39,375 bases of DNA. Origin: an uncultured Porphyromonadaceae bacterium. Lineage in GTDB: Bacteria > Bacteroidota > Bacteroidia > Bacteroidales > Muribaculaceae. The position numbers were made by a program, and so were the translations under genes. The notes below the pieces were generated by a model. That model ran no database searches, was not told where the DNA came from, and was given only the letters and a program-made list of their open reading frames with translations. The DNA lies in assembly GCA_947175425.1 (NCBI GenBank), contig CAMWMR010000022.1, forward strand, positions 1-39,375, in the 5' to 3' direction. Shown here one piece after another: positions 990-11,916 of this stretch; within the stretch, counting starts at the first letter, position 1; the number at the start of each line of letters is the position of its first letter.

Positions 990-1017
990 AGCATATTGTG
1001 TTTTATTGGTTATACCG

Positions 1018-1048
1018 CAAAATTATATTTTTTTTATAAAACTGCAAA
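1018..1048 (-). promoter_or_regulatory. Bacteroidetes-type promoter for the DUF805/lipoprotein operon
   Basis: On the minus strand TTTG (1048-1045) is followed after 19 bp by TAATTTTG (1025-1018), an exact match to the -33 TTTG / -7 TAnnTTTG layout. It sits 29 bp upstream of the DUF805 start codon. Confidence 0.7.
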
Positions 1049-1090
1049 ATTTTTCCGCGAAGAATTATGAACCAGCATGCAAATGCAGAT

Positions 1091-1108
1091 GTTTTACTGC
1101 TGTAAAAC
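1091..1108. promoter_or_regulatory. Perfect palindrome upstream of frc (operator or leader hairpin candidate)
   Basis: GTTTTAC and its exact reverse complement GTAAAAC flank TGCT, 23 bp before the frc start codon. It may be a regulator binding site or a small mRNA hairpin. No matching TAnnTTTG element was found on the plus strand between 990 and 1131, so the position of the frc promoter relative to the palindrome is unclear. Confidence 0.45.
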
Positions 1109-1131
1109 TACAAATTAAAACTACTGCTAAA

Positions 1132-2448
1132 ATGAACACAGCTCCTCTTCAAGGCATTAAAGTTGTGGACTTCACCGAAGTCCAGTCAGGCCCTTCATGT
1201 ACTCAGATGCTTGCATGGCTCGGCGCCGAAGTTATCAAAATAGAACGTCCCGGCGTGGGCGATGCCACTCGTAAAGAACTCCAGTTCAATCCCGACCTCC
1301 CAAGCTACTATTTTTTGCAGTTGAACTCAGACAAAAAGTCTGTTTCGCTCGATGCAAAAACTCCCGACGGAAAGGAAATTCTCACAAAACTCATTAAAGA
1401 ATGCGATATTTTCGTTGAGAACCTCCACCCCGGTGCTATGGATAAACTCGGCTTCAGCTGGGAAGTGGTGCATCAGCTCAACCCCCGCTGTATCTACGGT
1501 ACTATCAAAGGATTCCCTCTTTCATCCCGATACAAAGATCTTAAAGCATACGAGCCTATCGCACAGGTTACCGCCGCAGCGGCTTCTACAACCGGCTGGT
1601 ACGAAGGCGATTACAACATCCCGTCTCAATCGGGTGCGGCTCTTGGCGACTCAAACACCGGCATGCACCTCCTTATAGGTCTGCTCGCAGCTTTGCAGCA
1701 GCGAAACCAAACCGGCGAAGGATGCTACGTATATCAGTCAATGCACAACGCTTGCCTTAACCTTTGTCGTATTAAAACCCGCGACCAGCTGACTCTCGAT
1801 AAAATCGGATATCTCACACAGTTCCCCCAATATCCCGACGGACAGTTCGGCGACTGCGTTCCCCGTGCCGGAAACATCGAGGGTGGCGGTGTCCTCGGCT
1901 GGACATATAAATGCAAACCCTCGGGAAACTACGATTCTGCCGAAGATGCAAACAATTATGTATACGTCATTCTGCAGCGCGGTGCCAAAGACTTTGAACT
2001 ATTCTGCAACGCTGTAGGATTTCAGGATTGGCTTACCAATCCCGATTTCAACACCGCCGACGCACGCGACCGCCACAAACAAGAAATTTATCAACGCATC
2101 GGTGCATGGACGGCCGACAAAACCAAATACGAAGTCACTGAAATTCTTGGAAAAGCAGGTGTGCCTGTAGGGCCTGTTCTTTCAACCAAAGAATTGATGA
2201 CAGACGAAAGCCTGTACGATGGCAATACTTTGGTTAAAATCAACCAGGGAGGGGAAATCGGCGAATTCGTAACCGTAGGTTGTCCTTTCACAATGTCGAG
2301 CTATCAGCCGCAATACGGCCCCTGCCCCGACCTCGGAGGAAACACCGACGAAGTTCTCAAGTCTCTTGGATATACCGATGAACAAATAGCTTCGTTCGCG
2401 GCCAACGGGACAACCACTCCCGCAAAACCGCAGGCTCCTGCAAAATAA
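1132..2448 (+). CDS. frc: Formyl-CoA:oxalate CoA-transferase
   Basis: Class III CoA-transferase (CaiB/BaiF family), 438 residues from ATG 1132; the frame is open further upstream but homology begins at MNTAPLQGIKVVDFTEVQSG. It moves CoA from formyl-CoA to oxalate, giving oxalyl-CoA for the next gene's enzyme. Asp173 in GAALGDSNTGMHLLIG corresponds to the catalytic Asp169 of Oxalobacter Frc, and Gln18 to its Gln17. The blocks LNLCRIKTRDQ, QYPDGQFGDCVPRAGN and VGCPFTMS resemble E. coli YfdW closely. Two differences stand out against remembered sequences: the glycine loop reads GGGVLGW instead of GGGGQPGW, and the position of Oxalobacter Trp48 (Gln in YfdW) is Glu49. Followed 71 bp later by oxc. 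A generic CaiB-type transferase is the alternative, but the oxc neighbour makes oxalate by far the likeliest substrate. Confidence 0.93.
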   Translation: MNTAPLQGIKVVDFTEVQSGPSCTQMLAWLGAEVIKIERPGVGDATRKELQFNPDLPSYYFLQLNSDKKSVSLDAKTPDGKEILTKLIKECDIFVENLHPGAMDKLGFSWEVVHQLNPRCIYGTIKGFPLSSRYKDLKAYEPIAQVTAAAASTTGWYEGDYNIPSQSGAALGDSNTGMHLLIGLLAALQQRNQTGEGCYVYQSMHNACLNLCRIKTRDQLTLDKIGYLTQFPQYPDGQFGDCVPRAGNIEGGGVLGWTYKCKPSGNYDSAEDANNYVYVILQRGAKDFELFCNAVGFQDWLTNPDFNTADARDRHKQEIYQRIGAWTADKTKYEVTEILGKAGVPVGPVLSTKELMTDESLYDGNTLVKINQGGEIGEFVTVGCPFTMSSYQPQYGPCPDLGGNTDEVLKSLGYTDEQIASFAANGTTTPAKPQAPAK

Positions 2449-2519
2449 AAAAATACTCTCCTCGGGCACGGATGCCGGCCAACCGGTCGGTGTCCATGCT
2501 CTTTAATAAAGTACTCAAT

Positions 2520-4268
2520 ATGACAACAACAAATACATCAGCAGCAACTACACCCTCGTTCCCCGCACAGGTAACGGGTATGTATATTCTTGCTCAGGCG
2601 CTCAAAAGGCTCGGGCTCGACACTGTGTACGGGCTCGTTGGAATACCGGTAACCGAAGCGGCATACGCCATGCAGAAAGTGGGCGTAAAATTCGTAGGCT
2701 TCCGTTTCGAACAGCAGGCCGGAATGGCTGCCGCAACTCACGGCTACCTCACCAAGCAACCCGGTGTGCTCCTCACAGTTTCTTCGCTCGGTTTCATGAA
2801 CGGACTTACCGCAACGGCCAACGCCACCGTAAACTGCTATCCTATGATTCAGATTTCCGGTGCGTCCGACCCGACTATGGTAGACATGAAAATGGGCACA
2901 TACGAGGAACTCGACCAGCTCAATACTGCTCGTCCCTTGGTTAAAGCGGCATTCCGTTGCAGCCATGCAAAAGACATCCCCTCGGCTGTGGCTCGCGCCT
3001 ATCGCGCTGCAGTAAGCGGCCGTCCCGGCGGTGTATACATTGACATGACAACCCCGGCACTCGCCGAAATAATGGACGCCGACGAAGCCGAAAAACTGTT
3101 CTACGAACCCGTTGACCTCTACAGCCCCGTTGCTCCCAACGAAGCCGCCGTGGCACGTGCCGTTGAACTCCTCTCACAGGCAAAACGTCCCGCCGTTCTG
3201 CTCGGCAAAGGTGCAGCTTACGCACAAATCGACGATAAAATCAAAAAACTCGTCGAAACATATAACATCCCCTACCTCCCCATGTCAATGGCCAAGGGAC
3301 TTATGCCCGACAACGGACCCCTGAGCGCTCTCTCCTGCCGTTCTACAATCATGGAGCAGGCCGATGTGGTGCTCGTCCTCGGTGCACGCCTCAACTGGAT
3401 GCTCTCGTTCGGACGTGGAAAATGGAATCCGCAGATGAAGTTTATCCAAGTAGATGTTGAGCCGCAGGAAATGGACGTTAACGTTCCAATCGCCGCGCCT
3501 GTGGTTGGAGATATGGGAAAAGCCCTCGACGCTATTCTTGCCGGACTGGAAGGCAAAACCATGCATGCCGATCCCTCCTGGCTTACCTCTCTGCAGGCCG
3601 AGGCCAAGACAAAGAACGAAAAATTCCAGACCCGCCTGGCCGATGCCGCAAAAGTTTCGCCAATGAACCACTGGAGCGCTTTAAGCGCCATTAAACCCAT
3701 ATTGGAGGCCAACCCCGATGTGATACTCGTTAACGAAGGCGCCAACACCCTCGACGACACTCGCGACAGTATCGACATGACAATGCCCCGTCACCGCGTC
3801 GACTGCGCCACATGGGCAATCATGGGTATGGGAATGGGTTCCTGCGTAGGCGCTGCCGTGGCTACAGGCAAAAAAGTTGTGGCAATCGAAGGCGATTCCG
3901 CTTTCGGCTTCTCCGGCATGGATTTCGCAACTATTTGCCGCTTCAAGCTTCCTGTAACAGTCGTTGTTCTCAATAACGGAGGCATATACAACAATATCGG
4001 CGTCAACCCCTCTACCGACCCTGCTATTGAGCACGACCCCGCACCTACAACTCTCGACCTCTCGGCACGCTACGACAAGATGGGCGAGATTTTCGGAGCG
4101 AAAAACTACTATGTCACCACTCCCGACGAACTAAGTGCCGCCCTGAAAGCAGCCATCGATTCGGGCGAACCTAATATTATTAATGTTCAGCTCGCCGCCG
4201 ACGCAGGAAAGGAAAGCGGACATATAGGATACCTCAACCCTACGCCTCTAATCAACTTTACAGTCTGA
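2520..4268 (+). CDS. oxc: Oxalyl-CoA decarboxylase (thiamine diphosphate-dependent)
   Basis: 582 residues from ATG 2520 (MTTTNTSAATT); in-frame ATGs at 2472 and 2508 would only add a non-homologous leader. Decarboxylates oxalyl-CoA to formyl-CoA and CO2, consuming a proton. The N-terminal domain has YGLVGIPVTEAAY and RFEQQAGMAAATHGYL, whose Glu is the ThDP-activating Glu56 of the Oxalobacter enzyme; YEELDQ keeps its Tyr120. The middle domain has LLGKGAAYAQIDD, RLNWMLSFG and APVVGDM. The C-terminal cofactor motif is EGDSAFGFSG followed by NNGGIYNN. The tail ESGHIGYLNP keeps the equivalent of Ser553 but has His where Oxalobacter has Arg555. Acetolactate synthase-type enzymes share the fold but not these Oxc-specific blocks. 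Second gene of the oxalate operon. Confidence 0.95.
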   Translation: MTTTNTSAATTPSFPAQVTGMYILAQALKRLGLDTVYGLVGIPVTEAAYAMQKVGVKFVGFRFEQQAGMAAATHGYLTKQPGVLLTVSSLGFMNGLTATANATVNCYPMIQISGASDPTMVDMKMGTYEELDQLNTARPLVKAAFRCSHAKDIPSAVARAYRAAVSGRPGGVYIDMTTPALAEIMDADEAEKLFYEPVDLYSPVAPNEAAVARAVELLSQAKRPAVLLGKGAAYAQIDDKIKKLVETYNIPYLPMSMAKGLMPDNGPLSALSCRSTIMEQADVVLVLGARLNWMLSFGRGKWNPQMKFIQVDVEPQEMDVNVPIAAPVVGDMGKALDAILAGLEGKTMHADPSWLTSLQAEAKTKNEKFQTRLADAAKVSPMNHWSALSAIKPILEANPDVILVNEGANTLDDTRDSIDMTMPRHRVDCATWAIMGMGMGSCVGAAVATGKKVVAIEGDSAFGFSGMDFATICRFKLPVTVVVLNNGGIYNNIGVNPSTDPAIEHDPAPTTLDLSARYDKMGEIFGAKNYYVTTPDELSAALKAAIDSGEPNIINVQLAADAGKESGHIGYLNPTPLINFTV

Positions 4269-4360
4269 GGCAGGTGTTACCCGCTATTTATTTATGAATC
4301 AGGCCAAGCGCGGGCGACTGTTCCCGGTCGCCCGCCGCCGAAGCCATAAAATTTATTTTT

Positions 4361-5341
4361 ATGAACCTCACGCACGTTATTCTGTACGCCATTGTCCCTA
4401 TCATAGTGGTGATGCTTGCCGGATATATCTCCGGGAAGCGAGGGATTTTCTCCGGCGCGGACTCTAAAAAGTTCAACAAGGTTGTGCTCGACTACGCTTT
4501 GCCCGCTGCATTGTTTGTGAGCATTGTGCAGGCAAGCCGCGAAGACCTTATAAAGGATATCAAGCTAACCATTGTATCAACAGTGGGAATCATGGTATGC
4601 TTTATGATTGTGTATTTCATTTTCAAATACTGTTTTAAAAAGAATACCGGCGCCGACGCTGCCGTGAGCGCTCTTATCAGCGGTTCGCCAACAATCGGCT
4701 TTTTGGGCTTTGCCGTGCTTGAGCCTATTTTCGGCACATCGCCCGCTGTAGCTCTTGTTGTGGCAATTGTCGGTATCGTGGTAAACGCTATAGGCATTCC
4801 TGTGGGACTGTCGCTTATGAACGCCTCGCTTGCCGAACAGAATCCCGGAGCAAAGAAAGAAAGCGCATGGAAACCGGTGCTTCACGCTTTGGAACAGCCG
4901 GTTGCATGGGCGCCTATCTTGGCTGTAATTTGGGTTGTGGTGGGAATTCCCTGGCCTGCATATCTAAGCCCCTCGTTCAACCTTATTGCAAAAGCAAATG
5001 CTTCAATGGCTGTATTCTCGGCCGGTATAACCCTTGCATCCATCAAGTTCTCAATTAACTGGCAAGCCATTTTAGGTTCTATTCTCAAAATGGTTATGAT
5101 GCCCGCCGTTGTGCTCATTCTGGGTATGGTTTTCCACATGGACCCGCTTAACCTGAAAATGCTTGTCGTTGCAGCCGCTCTCCCCCCGGCATTCTCCGGT
5201 ATCATCATCGCCGACGAGTACAATACTTATGTGGCAACCGGCACCTCATCGCTTACACTTTCGGTAATTCTATTTATCGCCTTCTGCCCGCTTTGGATTT
5301 GGGCTACCGATGTGTGCCTGCACGCATTCCCAATGGCCTGA
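4361..5341 (+). CDS. AEC-family permease, probable oxalate/formate carrier (YfdV-like)
   Basis: 326 residues, mostly hydrophobic, with about ten predicted membrane helices and a break in the middle (NASLAEQNPGAKKESAWKP). The start MNLTHVILYAIVPIIVVMLA and the repeated GFLGFAVLEPIF / GITLASIKFSINW blocks are typical of the auxin efflux carrier (AEC) family, which includes malate and malonate permeases. It lies 92 bp after oxc and before the operon terminator, in the place yfdV occupies in E. coli yfdWUV. The inferred role is oxalate uptake, perhaps in exchange for formate, which would let decarboxylation build a proton gradient as OxlT does in Oxalobacter; OxlT itself is an unrelated MFS protein. 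Substrate and exchange mode are inference. Confidence 0.82.
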   Translation: MNLTHVILYAIVPIIVVMLAGYISGKRGIFSGADSKKFNKVVLDYALPAALFVSIVQASREDLIKDIKLTIVSTVGIMVCFMIVYFIFKYCFKKNTGADAAVSALISGSPTIGFLGFAVLEPIFGTSPAVALVVAIVGIVVNAIGIPVGLSLMNASLAEQNPGAKKESAWKPVLHALEQPVAWAPILAVIWVVVGIPWPAYLSPSFNLIAKANASMAVFSAGITLASIKFSINWQAILGSILKMVMMPAVVLILGMVFHMDPLNLKMLVVAAALPPAFSGIIIADEYNTYVATGTSSLTLSVILFIAFCPLWIWATDVCLHAFPMA

Positions 5342-5360: not shown

Positions 5361-5396
5361 GAAACGTCTCTCTTCCCGGGAGACGTTTCTTTTTTT
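5361..5396 (+). terminator. Intrinsic terminator of the oxalate operon
   Basis: Perfect 10-bp stem GAAACGTCTC / GAGACGTTTC with a 9-nt loop, followed by seven T. Lies 19 bp after the permease stop codon. Confidence 0.9.
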
Positions 5397-5507: not shown

Positions 5508-7922
5508 ATGAAACAACTTTACTCACGCACATTGCGTTGCGCACTTCCTGCAGCTCTCGCTTTATGTTGCGCAACTGCCAATGCGGAACCGCTCACATGG
5601 CAGATTCAAGGAAAAACCTACAACGTGGACACCCTGTTCCATGCACAGATAGGGCCCGGAACAACACAGACATCACTTGAGCTTTCCGGCCCGCGCGCCA
5701 TGCGACTGTTCTACACAGTTTCCGATATTACAAACCCTTACGTTGACATGCGCGGCACTAAAGGCGGCAACAAAGTTGCCGGAGCAGGAAAAGTTTCCGC
5801 TCAGGGAGCTGCCGCAAGCCGTGAAGGCGCACAATATTTTGCAGGTGTGAACGCCGACTTTTTCGGCGGTTCCATTCCTTGCGGAGCCGTTGTCGTGGAC
5901 GGCCTTACAATTTACGGCGTAAACAACAACTGGGACTGCTGGTGGATGACCGATGAAAAACGCCCCGGACTCGGACGAATCATTTTTGCAGGCAATGCAA
6001 ACTGCGGCGAGGCCTCCCACCGTGTGACCGGCATTAACTCCGACCGTGGCGAAAACGCCCTTGTAATATACAACTCATGCAAAGGCAGCACTACAGGCAC
6101 CAACACCTATGGTATCGAAAGGCGAATGGAACTCATCGAAGGTTCCATAGGCTATACCGGCAAAGCCAAATGCCGCATAACTTCCGAAAACACGTCCACG
6201 GCTCTGAGCCTCTCGGGCGACCAGCTCGTCCTTTCAGGACACGGAAGCGGAAAAGCATTTCTGGAAAGCCTGAATGTGGGCGATGAAGTGGAATTCGACT
6301 TCACAAGCGAAATCCCCGGCGGAGGCAACATCACACAAATGATAGGCGGAATGCCCGTAATTCTTTCCAATGGCGAAATTCAGGAAACCATGGGAGCCAT
6401 CGATCATCTTTCAGCTCTTCATCCCCGCACGGCAATCGGTTATAACGAAGAAGCTACAAAAGTGGTGCTTATGGTTGTGGACGGACGCACAACAATATCA
6501 CAAGGCTGTACATCCAAAGAACTTGGCGACATTATGCGCAACGTAGGCTGCTCCGAAGCCCTCAACTTTGACGGCGGCGGCTCCAGCGAGCTGTACACCA
6601 CATCGCTCGGCGTACGCAACTCCCCCTCCGACGGCGTTGAACGAACTGTTGTAAATGCAGTGTGGGCAGTATCTACTGCTCCTACCGACAACGAGGTAAC
6701 AAGCATTGCCTTTGAAAACCACACCACTTTCGCAATGCCCCGCTACGGCTATTTCAATCCCCGCATTTACGGATACAACAAATATGGCGTTCTTGTCGAC
6801 ACCGACTTCAAAGGCTACACCCTGAGCTGTCCCGAAGAGCTCGGCAGCATTGTCGACAACGGACTGCAGCTGTTCGCCAACGGAACCGGATGCCATGCGC
6901 TCACAGCCACTTTCGGCGAGCAGACAATAAGCCTGCCTGTTGAAATAAGCGATTGCGAGCCCGCAATACAAAAAACAAGCATTCTAATCAACGACAACCG
7001 AAAATATTCCGTTGAAGTCGCAGCCGAAGTAAACGGTGAACTCATGGCAATTGACAACGCTTCGCTCAAATGGACAACTTCCGATATTTCTATTGCCGAT
7101 GTTGACGAAAACGGTGTTATAACCGGCATTGGCAACGGTACCGCAACTATCAACGGCGTTGTCGACAGCTTCTCGGGCAACATCGAAGTGGAAGTGCAGA
7201 TACCCGACAAGCGTTACATGCTCCCCGAAGGTTTTGCCGAAGCCGACGGCTGGGCTCTTACAAAAGCAAGCATGAACAGCGCCGAACTCAGTGTTTCTGA
7301 AGCCGGTGTAAAAGTGGACTACAACATAAAAACCGCACGCACTGCAACTCTCACCGTTAAGAAAAACCTCAACCTCTATTCAATGCCCGACTCGGTACGC
7401 GTTGTAATGGATGCCGCCGACAGCAAGCTTACCAGCGTCACTCTCACCCTTGCTCCCGCTACAGGACGTTCCAAAACAGTAACAATCAGCGATCCCGAAA
7501 AAGCCGACGACGGTACTACAACGCTGCAATACTACATTGGCGACTTCTTCGATTACGACGACATAAGCATCTATCCCATGGCGGCAACTACCCTCAAGAT
7601 TATCCCCGGCGATGACATCTCCACCGACCACAGCTTCACCATCCGCTCAATCGAAGGCGTTCACAATCACGTAGCCGCAGGTTCCGGTGTAGAGGCCGCA
7701 ATAGCCGACAAAACCCAACCTGTGCTTCTTCCCAACCCCGTACAATCGGGCGGCAAAGCTATGCTCAAAGGCTTGGACGAAGGCGAACAATACACCGTTT
7801 ACACCGTTACCGGCATGGAAGTAGCCAAAGGTACGGCTCCCGTTCTGGATGCAGGCAGCCTTTCATCGGGCATATATTTGGTACGCACCGAAAAAGCCGT
7901 ACTCCGCATGATAGTGAAATAA
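5508..7922 (+). CDS. Secreted phosphodiester glycosidase (NAGPA-like) with Ig-like and T9SS sorting domains
   Basis: 804 residues with a clear signal peptide (positively charged start, hydrophobic core, cleavage near ANA-EP at 26-27). Residues about 100-400 resemble the phosphodiester glycosidase family of human N-acetylglucosamine-1-phosphodiester alpha-N-acetylglucosaminidase: FAGVNADFFG, ALHPRTAIGYNEE and, around Asp355, ALNFDGGGSSELYT. Residues about 490-565 look like a bacterial Ig-like group 2 domain (KWTTSDISIADVDENGVITG). The last 70 residues (VLLPNPVQSGGKAMLKG to the end, YTVTGMEVAKG, GIYLVRT) are a type A C-terminal sorting domain for type IX secretion. The protein is therefore likely exported and perhaps surface-anchored, cleaving sugar-1-phosphodiesters; the true substrate is unknown. 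It is a single-gene unit between two terminators. Confidence 0.85.
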   Translation: MKQLYSRTLRCALPAALALCCATANAEPLTWQIQGKTYNVDTLFHAQIGPGTTQTSLELSGPRAMRLFYTVSDITNPYVDMRGTKGGNKVAGAGKVSAQGAAASREGAQYFAGVNADFFGGSIPCGAVVVDGLTIYGVNNNWDCWWMTDEKRPGLGRIIFAGNANCGEASHRVTGINSDRGENALVIYNSCKGSTTGTNTYGIERRMELIEGSIGYTGKAKCRITSENTSTALSLSGDQLVLSGHGSGKAFLESLNVGDEVEFDFTSEIPGGGNITQMIGGMPVILSNGEIQETMGAIDHLSALHPRTAIGYNEEATKVVLMVVDGRTTISQGCTSKELGDIMRNVGCSEALNFDGGGSSELYTTSLGVRNSPSDGVERTVVNAVWAVSTAPTDNEVTSIAFENHTTFAMPRYGYFNPRIYGYNKYGVLVDTDFKGYTLSCPEELGSIVDNGLQLFANGTGCHALTATFGEQTISLPVEISDCEPAIQKTSILINDNRKYSVEVAAEVNGELMAIDNASLKWTTSDISIADVDENGVITGIGNGTATINGVVDSFSGNIEVEVQIPDKRYMLPEGFAEADGWALTKASMNSAELSVSEAGVKVDYNIKTARTATLTVKKNLNLYSMPDSVRVVMDAADSKLTSVTLTLAPATGRSKTVTISDPEKADDGTTTLQYYIGDFFDYDDISIYPMAATTLKIIPGDDISTDHSFTIRSIEGVHNHVAAGSGVEAAIADKTQPVLLPNPVQSGGKAMLKGLDEGEQYTVYTVTGMEVAKGTAPVLDAGSLSSGIYLVRTEKAVLRMIVK

Positions 7923-9433: not shown

Positions 9434-10987
9434 ATGAGCAGCCAACTCGAAAAAGTACAGGAACTTATTGAGCTTCGCACCAAAGCAAGGCTCGGCGGTG
9501 GCGAAAAAGCCATTGAGAAACAGCATGAACGCGGGAAATACACTGCCCGCGAACGTATTGCACAGCTTTTGGACGAGGGTTCTTTTGAAGAGCTCGACAT
9601 GTTTGTCCAGCATCGTTGCACCAACTTCGGACAGGATAAGAAAACATTCTTGGGCGACGGCGTTGTAACCGGTTACGGAACAATCGACGGTCGCCTTGTT
9701 TATGTTTTCGCACAGGACTTCACCGTATTCGGCGGTTCTCTGTCGGAAACCATGGCTCTGAAAATTTGCAAAGTAATGGATATGGCCATGAAGATGGGCG
9801 CTCCCGTTATCGGTCTTAACGACTCCGGCGGCGCACGTATTCAGGAAGGTATCAACGCGCTTGCAGGCTATGCCGAAATTTTCCAGCGCAACATCCTCGC
9901 TTCGGGTGTAATTCCCCAGATTTCGGCCATTCTCGGTCCTTGCGCCGGCGGTGCCGTATACTCCCCAGCCCTCACCGACTTCACAATCATGGCAAAGGGC
10001 ATCAGCTACATGTTCCTCACCGGTCCCAAGGTTGTTAAAACCGTTACCGGCGAAGATGTTACCCAGGAAGACCTCGGCGGCGCCGACGTACACTCCAAAA
10101 AGAGCGGTGTTTGCCACTTTGCTGCCGAAGACGGCGAAGATGCAATCAAAATTATACGCAAACTCTTCAGCTACATTCCTCAGAACAACCTCGAAGAACC
10201 GCCGCTGGTTGAATGTACCGACCCCATCGACCGTCTTGAAGACTCGCTCAACGAAATTATCCCCGACTCGCCCACACGTCCCTACGACATGTACGAAGTT
10301 ATCGGAGCAATTATCGACAACGGCGAATTCCTTGAAGTTCAGGCCGACTACGCCAAAAACATCATCGTAGGTTTCGCACGCTTCAACGGCCAGACAGTAG
10401 GTATTGTAGCCAACCAGCCCAAATATCTTGCCGGCGTGCTCGACAGCAACGCATCGCGCAAAGGCGCCCGTTTCGTACGTTTCTGCGACGCCTTCAACAT
10501 TCCTTTGGTTACCCTGGTTGACGTTCCCGGCTTCCTCCCCGGTACCGGACAGGAATACAACGGTGTTATTCTCCACGGTGCGAAACTTCTCTACGCCTAC
10601 GGCGAAGCCACTGTTCCCAAAGTTACCGTTACCCTGCGCAAGAGCTACGGCGGCAGCCACATTGTGATGAGCTGCAAGCAGCTCCGCGGCGACATGAACT
10701 ACGCATGGCCTACCGCTGAAATCGCCGTTATGGGCGGTGCCGGTGCCGTTGAAGTACTCTACGCCAAGGAAGCCAAGGCAAGTGAAAATCCCGCCAAAGT
10801 GCTGGCCGACCGCGAAGCCGAGTACAACAAGCTTTTCTGCAACCCCTACAACGCAGCCCGCTACGGATATATCGACGACGTTATCGAACCCCGCAACACT
10901 CGTTTCCGCGTTATCCGCGCACTGCAGCAGCTGGCAACCAAAAAAGTTACCAATCCTGCCAAAAAGCACGGCAACATACCCCTGTAA
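9434..10987 (+). CDS. mmdA: Methylmalonyl-CoA decarboxylase alpha subunit / acyl-CoA carboxyltransferase
   Basis: 517 residues, full length for the carboxyltransferase family (PccB/MmdA). It transfers the carboxyl group of methylmalonyl-CoA to the biotin carried by MmdC. The first half-domain has [13 protein letters not shown] and [16 protein letters not shown], forming the acyl-CoA pocket and oxyanion holes; the second has [33 protein letters not shown] and [11 protein letters not shown]. The C-terminus ([18 protein letters not shown]) is standard. PccB of a biotin-dependent carboxylase looks alike, but no biotin carboxylase gene is present and a beta-type sodium pump follows, so decarboxylation is favoured. 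The stop codon TAA overlaps the next ATG by one base (TAATG). Confidence 0.94.
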
Positions 10988-11916
10988 TGTCCACTATGAA
11001 ACGTATAATATCGGGCCTAACCCTCGGCGTTTGTGCGCTTGCGCTTAGCTGCGGAGCTTCCGCACAAGGGCGTTCGTCGCTCAAAATCAACGAGGTAATG
11101 GTCGCCAACGAAAACAGCGTTGTTGACGAATACGGCAACCGAAACGCCTGGATTGAGCTTTTCAACCTCAATTTCGCGCCCATGGAAATTTCTGCCGTTT
11201 ACCTCACCAACGACTCCTTGCAGCCTCGCAAGTATCCTGTTCCATTAGGAGACGTAAACACCGAAATTCCCGCCCGCCAGCACGTGGTTTTCTTTGCCGA
11301 CGGCGAGCCTAACAAAGGAACTTTCCACACATCCTTTACCCTTACTCCGGGTCAGGACAACTGGATTGGCGTTTACGATGCCGACGGCATTACCCTTATC
11401 GACGAGGTCCTTATCCCCGCATCGCTTGAGCCTGACCAGACCTGGGCACGTACCAGCGACGGTACCGGCGAATGGGCGCTCCGCACCGGCGACGACTCCG
11501 CTTACATCACTCCCGGCGGAGCCAATGTGATTAAGGACACCAACAAAAAGATTGAAATGTTCGCCGAGCGCGACGAAAACGGTTTTGGCATGACAATCAT
11601 GGCTATGTGCGTTGTATTCAGTGCCTTGCTGCTGCTTTGCCTGAGCTTCTACGGCATCGGCAAGATAGGCGCCGGAATTTCCAAACTCAACAAGATGCGT
11701 GCACACGGTGTTACCCGCGACGAAGCCGCCGAACACCACGTTACCCACGACTCGGGAGAGGAAATCGCCGCCATTACCATGGCTCTCTACGAACATCTCA
11801 ACGCTCACGATACCGAGAGCACCATTCTCACCATAAACAAGGTGAAACGTGCATACTCGCCGTGGAGCTCCAAAATTTACGGTTTGCGCGAAGTGCCCGA
11901 GCACAGGCGTAAATAA
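10987..11916 (+). CDS. Lamin-tail-domain / OadG-like subunit of the decarboxylase sodium pump
   Basis: 309 residues in an unusual arrangement. A signal-like segment (1-27, ending SAQG) is followed by a lamin tail domain (about 29-165: SSLKINEVMVANENS, AWIELFNL, PGGANVI). A single membrane helix lies at about 202-226 (FGMTIMAMCVVFSALLLLCL) and resembles the OadG/MmdD anchor that holds decarboxylase complexes at the membrane. A basic, His/Glu-containing cytoplasmic tail ends RAYSPWSSKIYGLRE. The beta-rich domain would face the periplasm. It is translationally coupled to mmdA and precedes the biotin carrier, which supports a gamma/delta-subunit role. ATG at 10987 is used; ATG at 10996 (MKRIISG) is equally plausible. 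Confidence 0.85.
   Translation: MSTMKRIISGLTLGVCALALSCGASAQGRSSLKINEVMVANENSVVDEYGNRNAWIELFNLNFAPMEISAVYLTNDSLQPRKYPVPLGDVNTEIPARQHVVFFADGEPNKGTFHTSFTLTPGQDNWIGVYDADGITLIDEVLIPASLEPDQTWARTSDGTGEWALRTGDDSAYITPGGANVIKDTNKKIEMFAERDENGFGMTIMAMCVVFSALLLLCLSFYGIGKIGAGISKLNKMRAHGVTRDEAAEHHVTHDSGEEIAAITMALYEHLNAHDTESTILTINKVKRAYSPWSSKIYGLREVPEHRRK

Follow-up and report, generated by a model that had tools for sequence, protein, structure and literature searches.

In Oxalobacter, exchange by the antiporter OxlT, coupled to formyl-CoA:oxalate CoA-transferase (Frc) and oxalyl-CoA decarboxylase (Oxc), builds a proton-motive force, as set out in passages of PMC3720670. The passages of the same report on the yfdXWUVE operon of Escherichia coli, which holds frc, oxc, yfdV and yfdE, tie it to oxalate-induced acid tolerance rather than to oxalate consumption. 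They give YfdV, in 2013 'an unassigned membrane transport protein', a secondary role, and put forward yhjX rather than yfdV as a possible oxalate:formate antiporter of E. coli (PMC3720670). Among Muribaculaceae (S24-7), 19 of 30 genomes were reported to carry frc and oxc, each of the 19 having a permease next to oxc; in the part of the report concerned, this permease is absent from the remaining genomes and is proposed to take up oxalate (Ormerod 2016, PMC4936053). K01577, K07749 and the 'uncharacterized' K07088 are given as family-specific orthologues in a section of a later study (Lagkouvardos 2019, PMC6381624). Bacteroidetes Oxc and Frc were much more abundant in faecal than in caecal mouse metaproteomes (PMC5348496). 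Human metagenomes were found to contain oxc of Muribaculaceae (PMC8062136), and another human survey, in its portion on frc, has the gene in Pseudomonadota and Bacillota genomes only (PMC12188714).

We analysed an operon of this kind in a window of 39,375 nucleotides, the whole of contig CAMWMR010000022.1 from an uncultured Porphyromonadaceae bacterium placed in Muribaculaceae (GCA_947175425.1). The operon with its adjacent permease is not new: the S24-7 report describes an operon alike in kind, family and proposed oxalate uptake, and yfdV of E. coli is a relative from the same clade; the original prediction for this DNA was correct in stating that oxalate genes had been noted in S24-7 genomes (Ormerod 2016, PMC4936053). 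The arrangement is already known, and the operon is an ordinary one for Muribaculaceae. Added here are a larger sample, the family of the carrier, the residues of its clade, copies that have moved away from oxc, and data on the fate of formate. In the open-licence literature we found neither a transport measurement for any YfdV protein nor an auxin efflux carrier together with both enzymes, in line with the original prediction, which knew of no test of the carrier; the one paper found on a permease and oxalate degradation in Muribaculaceae repeats the S24-7 report, and the relevant table of a 2024 paper has YfdV as 'Uncharacterized' (PMC10971958).

Gene order and expression signals

The source genome comprises 2.5 Mb in 64 contigs (C22 being the window), with a completeness of 99.99%. 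Three genes share the + strand: frc (1132..2448, 438 aa), oxc (2520..4268, 582 aa) and the gene of a YfdV-clade AEC carrier, the presumed oxalate importer (4361..5341, 326 aa). Between them lie 71 and 92 bases, and their products have 52, 51 and 52% identity to E. coli YfdW, YfdU and YfdV, respectively. Profile matches bore out the predicted positions and identities of the three genes within 4.2 kb, and the frc-oxc-yfdV order, which had been likened to yfdWUV, was confirmed on MG1655. Unlike the E. coli operon, that of the window has neither yfdX nor yfdE. Since YfdE (4hl6) is matched by the Frc of the window at 7e-41, a second, YfdE-like protein in the source genome should have shown itself; the genome gave a single Frc match at E ≤ 0.001.

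The strong terminator that had been predicted lies on the + strand at 5361..5396, where a 12-pair stem (5361-5389) is followed by seven T; its folding energy is -20.1 kcal/mol (z -5.4). The prediction of a clear start region held in part. A gap of 142 bases on the + strand (990..1131) separates frc from a divergent DUF805 gene and is the presumed promoter region, but a promoter scan, which does not cover Bacteroidota promoters, saw no sigma-70-like site in it. The same gap had no notable fold (z -1.5). An in-frame ATG at 2472 precedes the adopted start of oxc; 2520 was taken since the alignments of most relatives begin at residues 1-10 of the protein read from there, and it is the preferred, though not proven, start.

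Strong hairpins without a T run occur in both operon gaps (2470-2495 and 4308-4340; gap folds z -5.7 and -3.5). As an operon-specific feature they were rejected, because control gaps between other genes of the same loci fold equally strongly in relatives: the median z was -3.63 for 51 frc-oxc gaps, -3.57 for 42 oxc-carrier gaps and -3.14 for 71 control gaps, with no significant difference between operon and control gaps (p 0.73 and 0.51). The hairpins therefore look like a general trait.

The enzyme pair

Frc scored 569.6 bits against TIGR03253 (cut-off 504.2) and Oxc 783.3 bits against NF006721 (cut-off 557); against TIGR03254, Oxc reached 735.2 bits, 4 bits under the cut-off of 739.4. Both proteins align over most of their length with solved structures, 7ayg, 2q27 and 2c31 being the OXC structures matched. 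Frc carries Asp173, within GDSNTG, and VQSGP, which we take to be catalytic or cofactor-binding residues of FRC, Asp173 presumably being the catalytic aspartate. The Glu, YE, GDSAFGFSGM, NNGGIY and ESGHI of Oxc presumably have catalytic or cofactor-binding roles in OXC. Judged by these matches, the operon encodes the frc and oxc pair of type II oxalate degradation.

The glycine loop of Frc (window 1870-1902, residues 247-257) reads GNIEGGGVLGW, as against GNAGGGGQPGW in E. coli. The form GN-x-EG-G/S-GVLGW was found in 53 of 54 Muribaculaceae-type rows, with ANTEGGGVLGW in the remaining one, and GN-x-EGGQVLGW in six Bacteroides-type loci; E. coli and 15 other non-Bacteroidota rows have GNAGGGGQPGW (9) or a loop of the GNDSGGGQ type (7).

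An AEC carrier of the YfdV clade

With 187.4 bits against PF03547 (Mem_trans; cut-off 25.7), the carrier is a member of the AEC family, and it is the only PF03547 match in its genome. K07088, mentioned above, we take to be the AEC group. The best NCBIfam model of the carrier is that of YfdV (NF007384), which it matches at 326.7 bits, under the cut-off of 404; we therefore assign it to a YfdV clade and do not call it a YfdV equivalog. When a structure model (pLDDT 81.6, pTM 0.83) was compared with known structures (VIA), LYCHOS and PIN8 were at the top of the list. The model has helix breaks at 108-113 and 273-277. The predicted fold is PIN-like or LYCHOS-like, with two helices broken at the crossovers; sequence identity to plant PIN auxin carriers and LYCHOS, which share the AEC/PF03547 fold, is 16-20%. 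OxlT of Oxalobacter, in contrast, is an MFS protein.

A clade profile was built from the carrier of the window and 60 others, including E. coli YfdV and those of L114, L115 and L143. Member carriers, which themselves built the profile, scored 468.6-607.3 bits, and the next Bacteroidales AECs at most 52.5; E. coli YfdV, likewise one of the rows behind the profile, scored 468.6. AEC proteins over the cut-off were present in 36 of 119 genomes of the order. At the loci of the 30 best of these 36, the only clade members were those of the window, G013 and G716, each with oxc directly upstream. By sequence, these carriers form a sharply separate AEC clade, the YfdV clade, which is a grouping of our own.

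Residues were compared between 60 clade rows (window included; L035 and L135 dropped) and 13 other AECs. Thr111 and Tyr290 are common to the clade rows, at columns where 12 of the 13 others have Asn and Asp, respectively. Ser279, Ser297, Thr224, Asp66 and Arg60 (59/60) are common to the clade and absent at these columns from all 13 others; Asn213, also shared by the clade, occurs in one of them. Thr111 and Ser279 are in the two crossovers, Thr111 in the first, where it aligns with the crossover Asn of PIN8, presumably a ligand of the auxin carboxylate. Outside the crossovers the placement of columns is less sure because the outgroup of 13 AECs is distant. Lys40 and Lys243, although the same in every clade row, were rejected as signature residues, since 7 and 12 of the 13 other AECs have Lys or Arg at these columns.

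Linkage of the carrier to oxc

The original prediction had proposed a gene-neighbourhood analysis across Muribaculaceae. Among 247 genomes of the family, 152 have oxc and 156 have a carrier relative; both were present in 150, oxc only in two, the carrier only in six and neither in 89 (odds ratio 1112). In 171 high-quality genomes each gene was found in 115. All eight discordant genomes are less than 90% complete. Six of them have the carrier only (G047, G134, G201, G231, G235, G246). As for the two with oxc only, the gene is cut by a contig end in G230; in G221 (79% complete) it lies inside a long contig, followed by other genes, and the carrier was not found in the genome.

Of the 150 genomes that have both genes, 144 had the positions of both among the matches listed. 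In 138 of these 144 pairs the carrier follows oxc on the same contig and strand at a distance of 15-376 bases (median 88), and in six it is on a different contig. One gene of the split pair is at or near a contig end in G002, G045, G091, G161 and G196. G236 has the two genes in the interior of separate contigs, which indicates a real move with retention of the carrier.

A set of 80 named oxc loci comprises 62 of Bacteroidota type and 18 others (Pseudomonadota, Actinomycetota). The carrier, whole or cut, follows oxc in 58 of the 62; of the remaining four, three stop at a contig edge, and in the fourth, L034, RND efflux genes follow oxc and the carrier is kept elsewhere in the genome. Such moved but retained carriers were seen in two genomes (L034 and L143; L149 and L150). 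The frc-oxc-carrier order of the window recurs in six loci titled Bacteroides or Rikenellaceae, and all 20 relatives fetched around oxc keep the three genes. No YfdV-clade carrier was seen within the flanks of the 18 non-Bacteroidota loci, so the carrier is dispensable for the pathway. Carrier and OXC distances correlated with a Pearson coefficient of 0.90 over 50 loci plus the window; as the value was only 0.52 within the 44 Muribaculaceae, we did not use this mirror-tree comparison as support.

Other carriers and other neighbours

The claim that an AEC protein occupies the place that OxlT has in some other oxalate users agrees with the results of an OxlT search. The OxlT model (TIGR04259, cut-off 335) was over its cut-off in none of the 247 Muribaculaceae genomes (best score 62.8 bits); as a positive control, it gave 638.8 and 629.4 bits for proteins encoded close to oxc at two loci of Burkholderiales. 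An OxlT encoded elsewhere in the source genome was rejected as the importer, only weak MFS matches to the model (best 22.3 bits against the cut-off of 335) being found there. The 18 non-Bacteroidota loci include these two with an OxlT; L108 has Nramp-type proteins near oxc, L101 and L104 have two membrane proteins there without an NCBIfam name, and for most of the others a rough scan of the flanks gave no ORF with many helices.

The original prediction had further linked the operon to a sodium system encoded by mmd genes 5 kb away. These begin 4.1 kb after the carrier, with mmdA at 9434, and a phosphodiester-glycosidase gene and an Lrp-type gene lie in between. When 111 loci were searched at more than 60 bits, the neighbours of the window were absent from the 80 named oxc loci except for Lrp-like matches in two of them, L071 and L073; L117, a locus fetched for another AEC, gave a weak match to mmdA. 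Flanks in this search were at most 6 kb, at full length in 44 of the 62 Bacteroidota-type loci. Because mmdB would lie beyond their reach, 20 longer stretches around oxc were fetched from relatives picked for long contigs, eight of them of the same genus; 19 extend about 10 kb downstream of oxc, and L170 less than 2 kb. None of the 20 had a match over 60 bits to the mmdA, mmdB, epimerase, Lrp, NAGPA or DUF805 proteins of the window. The mmd genes were therefore rejected as part of the oxalate system, the proposed link to the sodium system is not supported, and the closeness of the two gene groups is probably due to chance.

The gene at window 5508-7922 encodes a protein with a NAGPA (phosphodiester-glycosidase) domain and a weak Big_2 match under the cut-off. 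At 10987-11916 an mmdD-like small subunit has an N-terminal part resembling a lamin-tail domain (33.4 bits, just under the cut-off of 34.3) ahead of its OAD_gamma part.

Distribution outside Muribaculaceae

A plasmid of Cetobacterium somerae from fish gut carries frc, oxc and the AEC gene, the carrier being 53% identical to that of the window; no paper on this trio was among the matches listed. On a conjugative Klebsiella variicola plasmid, the carrier is accompanied by frc, oxc, yfdX and yfdE. A search of 72,556 plasmid records at E ≤ 1e-40 gave eight carrier matches, in two Cetobacterium, one Klebsiella and five E. coli records. Four of the E. coli records are hardly plasmids, being over 1.4 Mb, and in the fifth the carrier stretch is in three pieces. 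In 50,697 phage records there was no carrier match at E ≤ 1e-10. Just upstream of the trio on C. somerae plasmid p4 (L145:2368-7029) is a small cupin gene.

A tree of 42 OXC rows has a branch with support 100/100 that sets the 17 rows of Muribaculaceae type apart from all others. The six Bacteroides-type rows are among those others, together with E. coli, and so look like a separate lineage. At E ≤ 1e-130, oxc was found in one of 395 sampled Bacteroidota genomes, that of the window itself; this draw consists mostly of other classes and does not contain the Bacteroides-type oxc loci. Four loci titled Desulfovibrio, Clostridium or Lachnoclostridium (L081, L049, L060, L077) have oxc units of Muribaculaceae type, L081 and L077 also lying within the Muribaculaceae branch of the tree; they are either mislabelled MAGs or cases of transfer.

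Possible exchange or import of oxalate

We propose that this is a type II oxalate operon in which the AEC carrier imports oxalate, with oxalate:formate exchange as the most likely mechanism, a reading to which we give a probability of roughly 60%. The carrier would bring oxalate into the cell. Going by family membership, Frc would move CoA from formyl-CoA onto oxalate with release of formate, and Oxc would convert oxalyl-CoA to formyl-CoA and CO2 with consumption of one proton. Formate would then leave, external oxalate (2-) being exchanged for internal formate (1-). Such an exchange would make the inside negative and, together with the proton use of Oxc, would generate a proton-motive force in the manner of OxlT in Oxalobacter, where the same two enzymes act and the same net transport is proposed. 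The parts of this reading differ in strength. Co-occurrence with oxc and the absence of OxlT make it quite probable that the carrier moves oxalate; that it does so in exchange for formate is a guess at about even odds.

Formate itself is probably excreted. Formate-THF ligase gave no match in the source genome and was over its cut-off in 9 of the 247 Muribaculaceae genomes; a control genome, Bacteroides ihuae, does give a match. A comparison of the lists by eye places four of the nine (G067, G084, G178, G226) in the group of 152 genomes with oxc, so the other 148 probably do not assimilate formate by this enzyme, although incomplete genomes inflate such absences. Its likely exit is by exchange or by a channel, and the sequence does not decide between exchange and import with a separate exit of formate.

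Import of oxalate alone or with protons, formate leaving through an FNT formate/nitrite channel or as formic acid, is the less probable of these two, though hardly to be neglected. The operon would in that case detoxify oxalate or raise the internal pH and would store little or no energy. An FNT channel is encoded in 165 of the 247 genomes, that of the window included, and more often in those with oxc (117/152) than in those without (48/95; odds ratio 3.3), which could give formate a way out that needs no exchange. Control of pH is a plausible alternative use, the same E. coli genes serving acid tolerance in the passages that describe them (PMC3720670). Yet 35 of the 152 oxc genomes show no FNT, absences that incomplete genomes again inflate, and something else must release or use formate in them. 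The FNT protein of the source genome scores 172.3 bits, under the FocA cut-off of 290.1, which leaves its substrate unsure, and by textbook transport energetics the uptake of a divalent anion without exchange opposes an inside-negative membrane.

It is improbable that the carrier mainly moves another acid or exports formate, oxalate entering by some other carrier. Most AEC proteins have no known substrate, and YfdV is among those listed as 'Uncharacterized' in the table cited above (PMC10971958); the near-perfect co-occurrence with oxc, the lack of any OxlT over the cut-off in 247 genomes and the fact that the carrier is the sole AEC match in its genome speak against this. To regard it as a passenger, beside oxc by chance or hitch-hiking, is hardly credible. 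Joint inheritance is common among operon genes, and the distance correlation within Muribaculaceae is low, but the carrier was kept after moving from oxc in two genomes and is absent together with oxc from 89. The trio is found in Bacteroidota, Pseudomonadota and Fusobacteriota, and the genes around it differ from those of the window in all 20 relatives.

Returning to exchange, a wider proposal can be made tentatively, with the odds somewhat against it: the YfdV clade may be a second electrogenic oxalate:formate exchanger, unrelated to and convergent with OxlT, that travels between phyla as a three-gene plasmid unit and has a signature of its own. The signature proposed comprises Thr111 and Ser279 at the crossovers with Asn213, Thr224, Tyr290 and Ser297. 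These residues and the two genomes with moved carriers make the carrier question directly testable.

If the carrier does import oxalate, the ability of these bacteria to clear dietary oxalate would hinge on this step. Oxalate is the main component of common kidney stones. A true importer would also assign a substrate to a carrier that has so far had none in E. coli. If the exchange reading is true, abundant gut Bacteroidota would earn proton-motive force from dietary oxalate.
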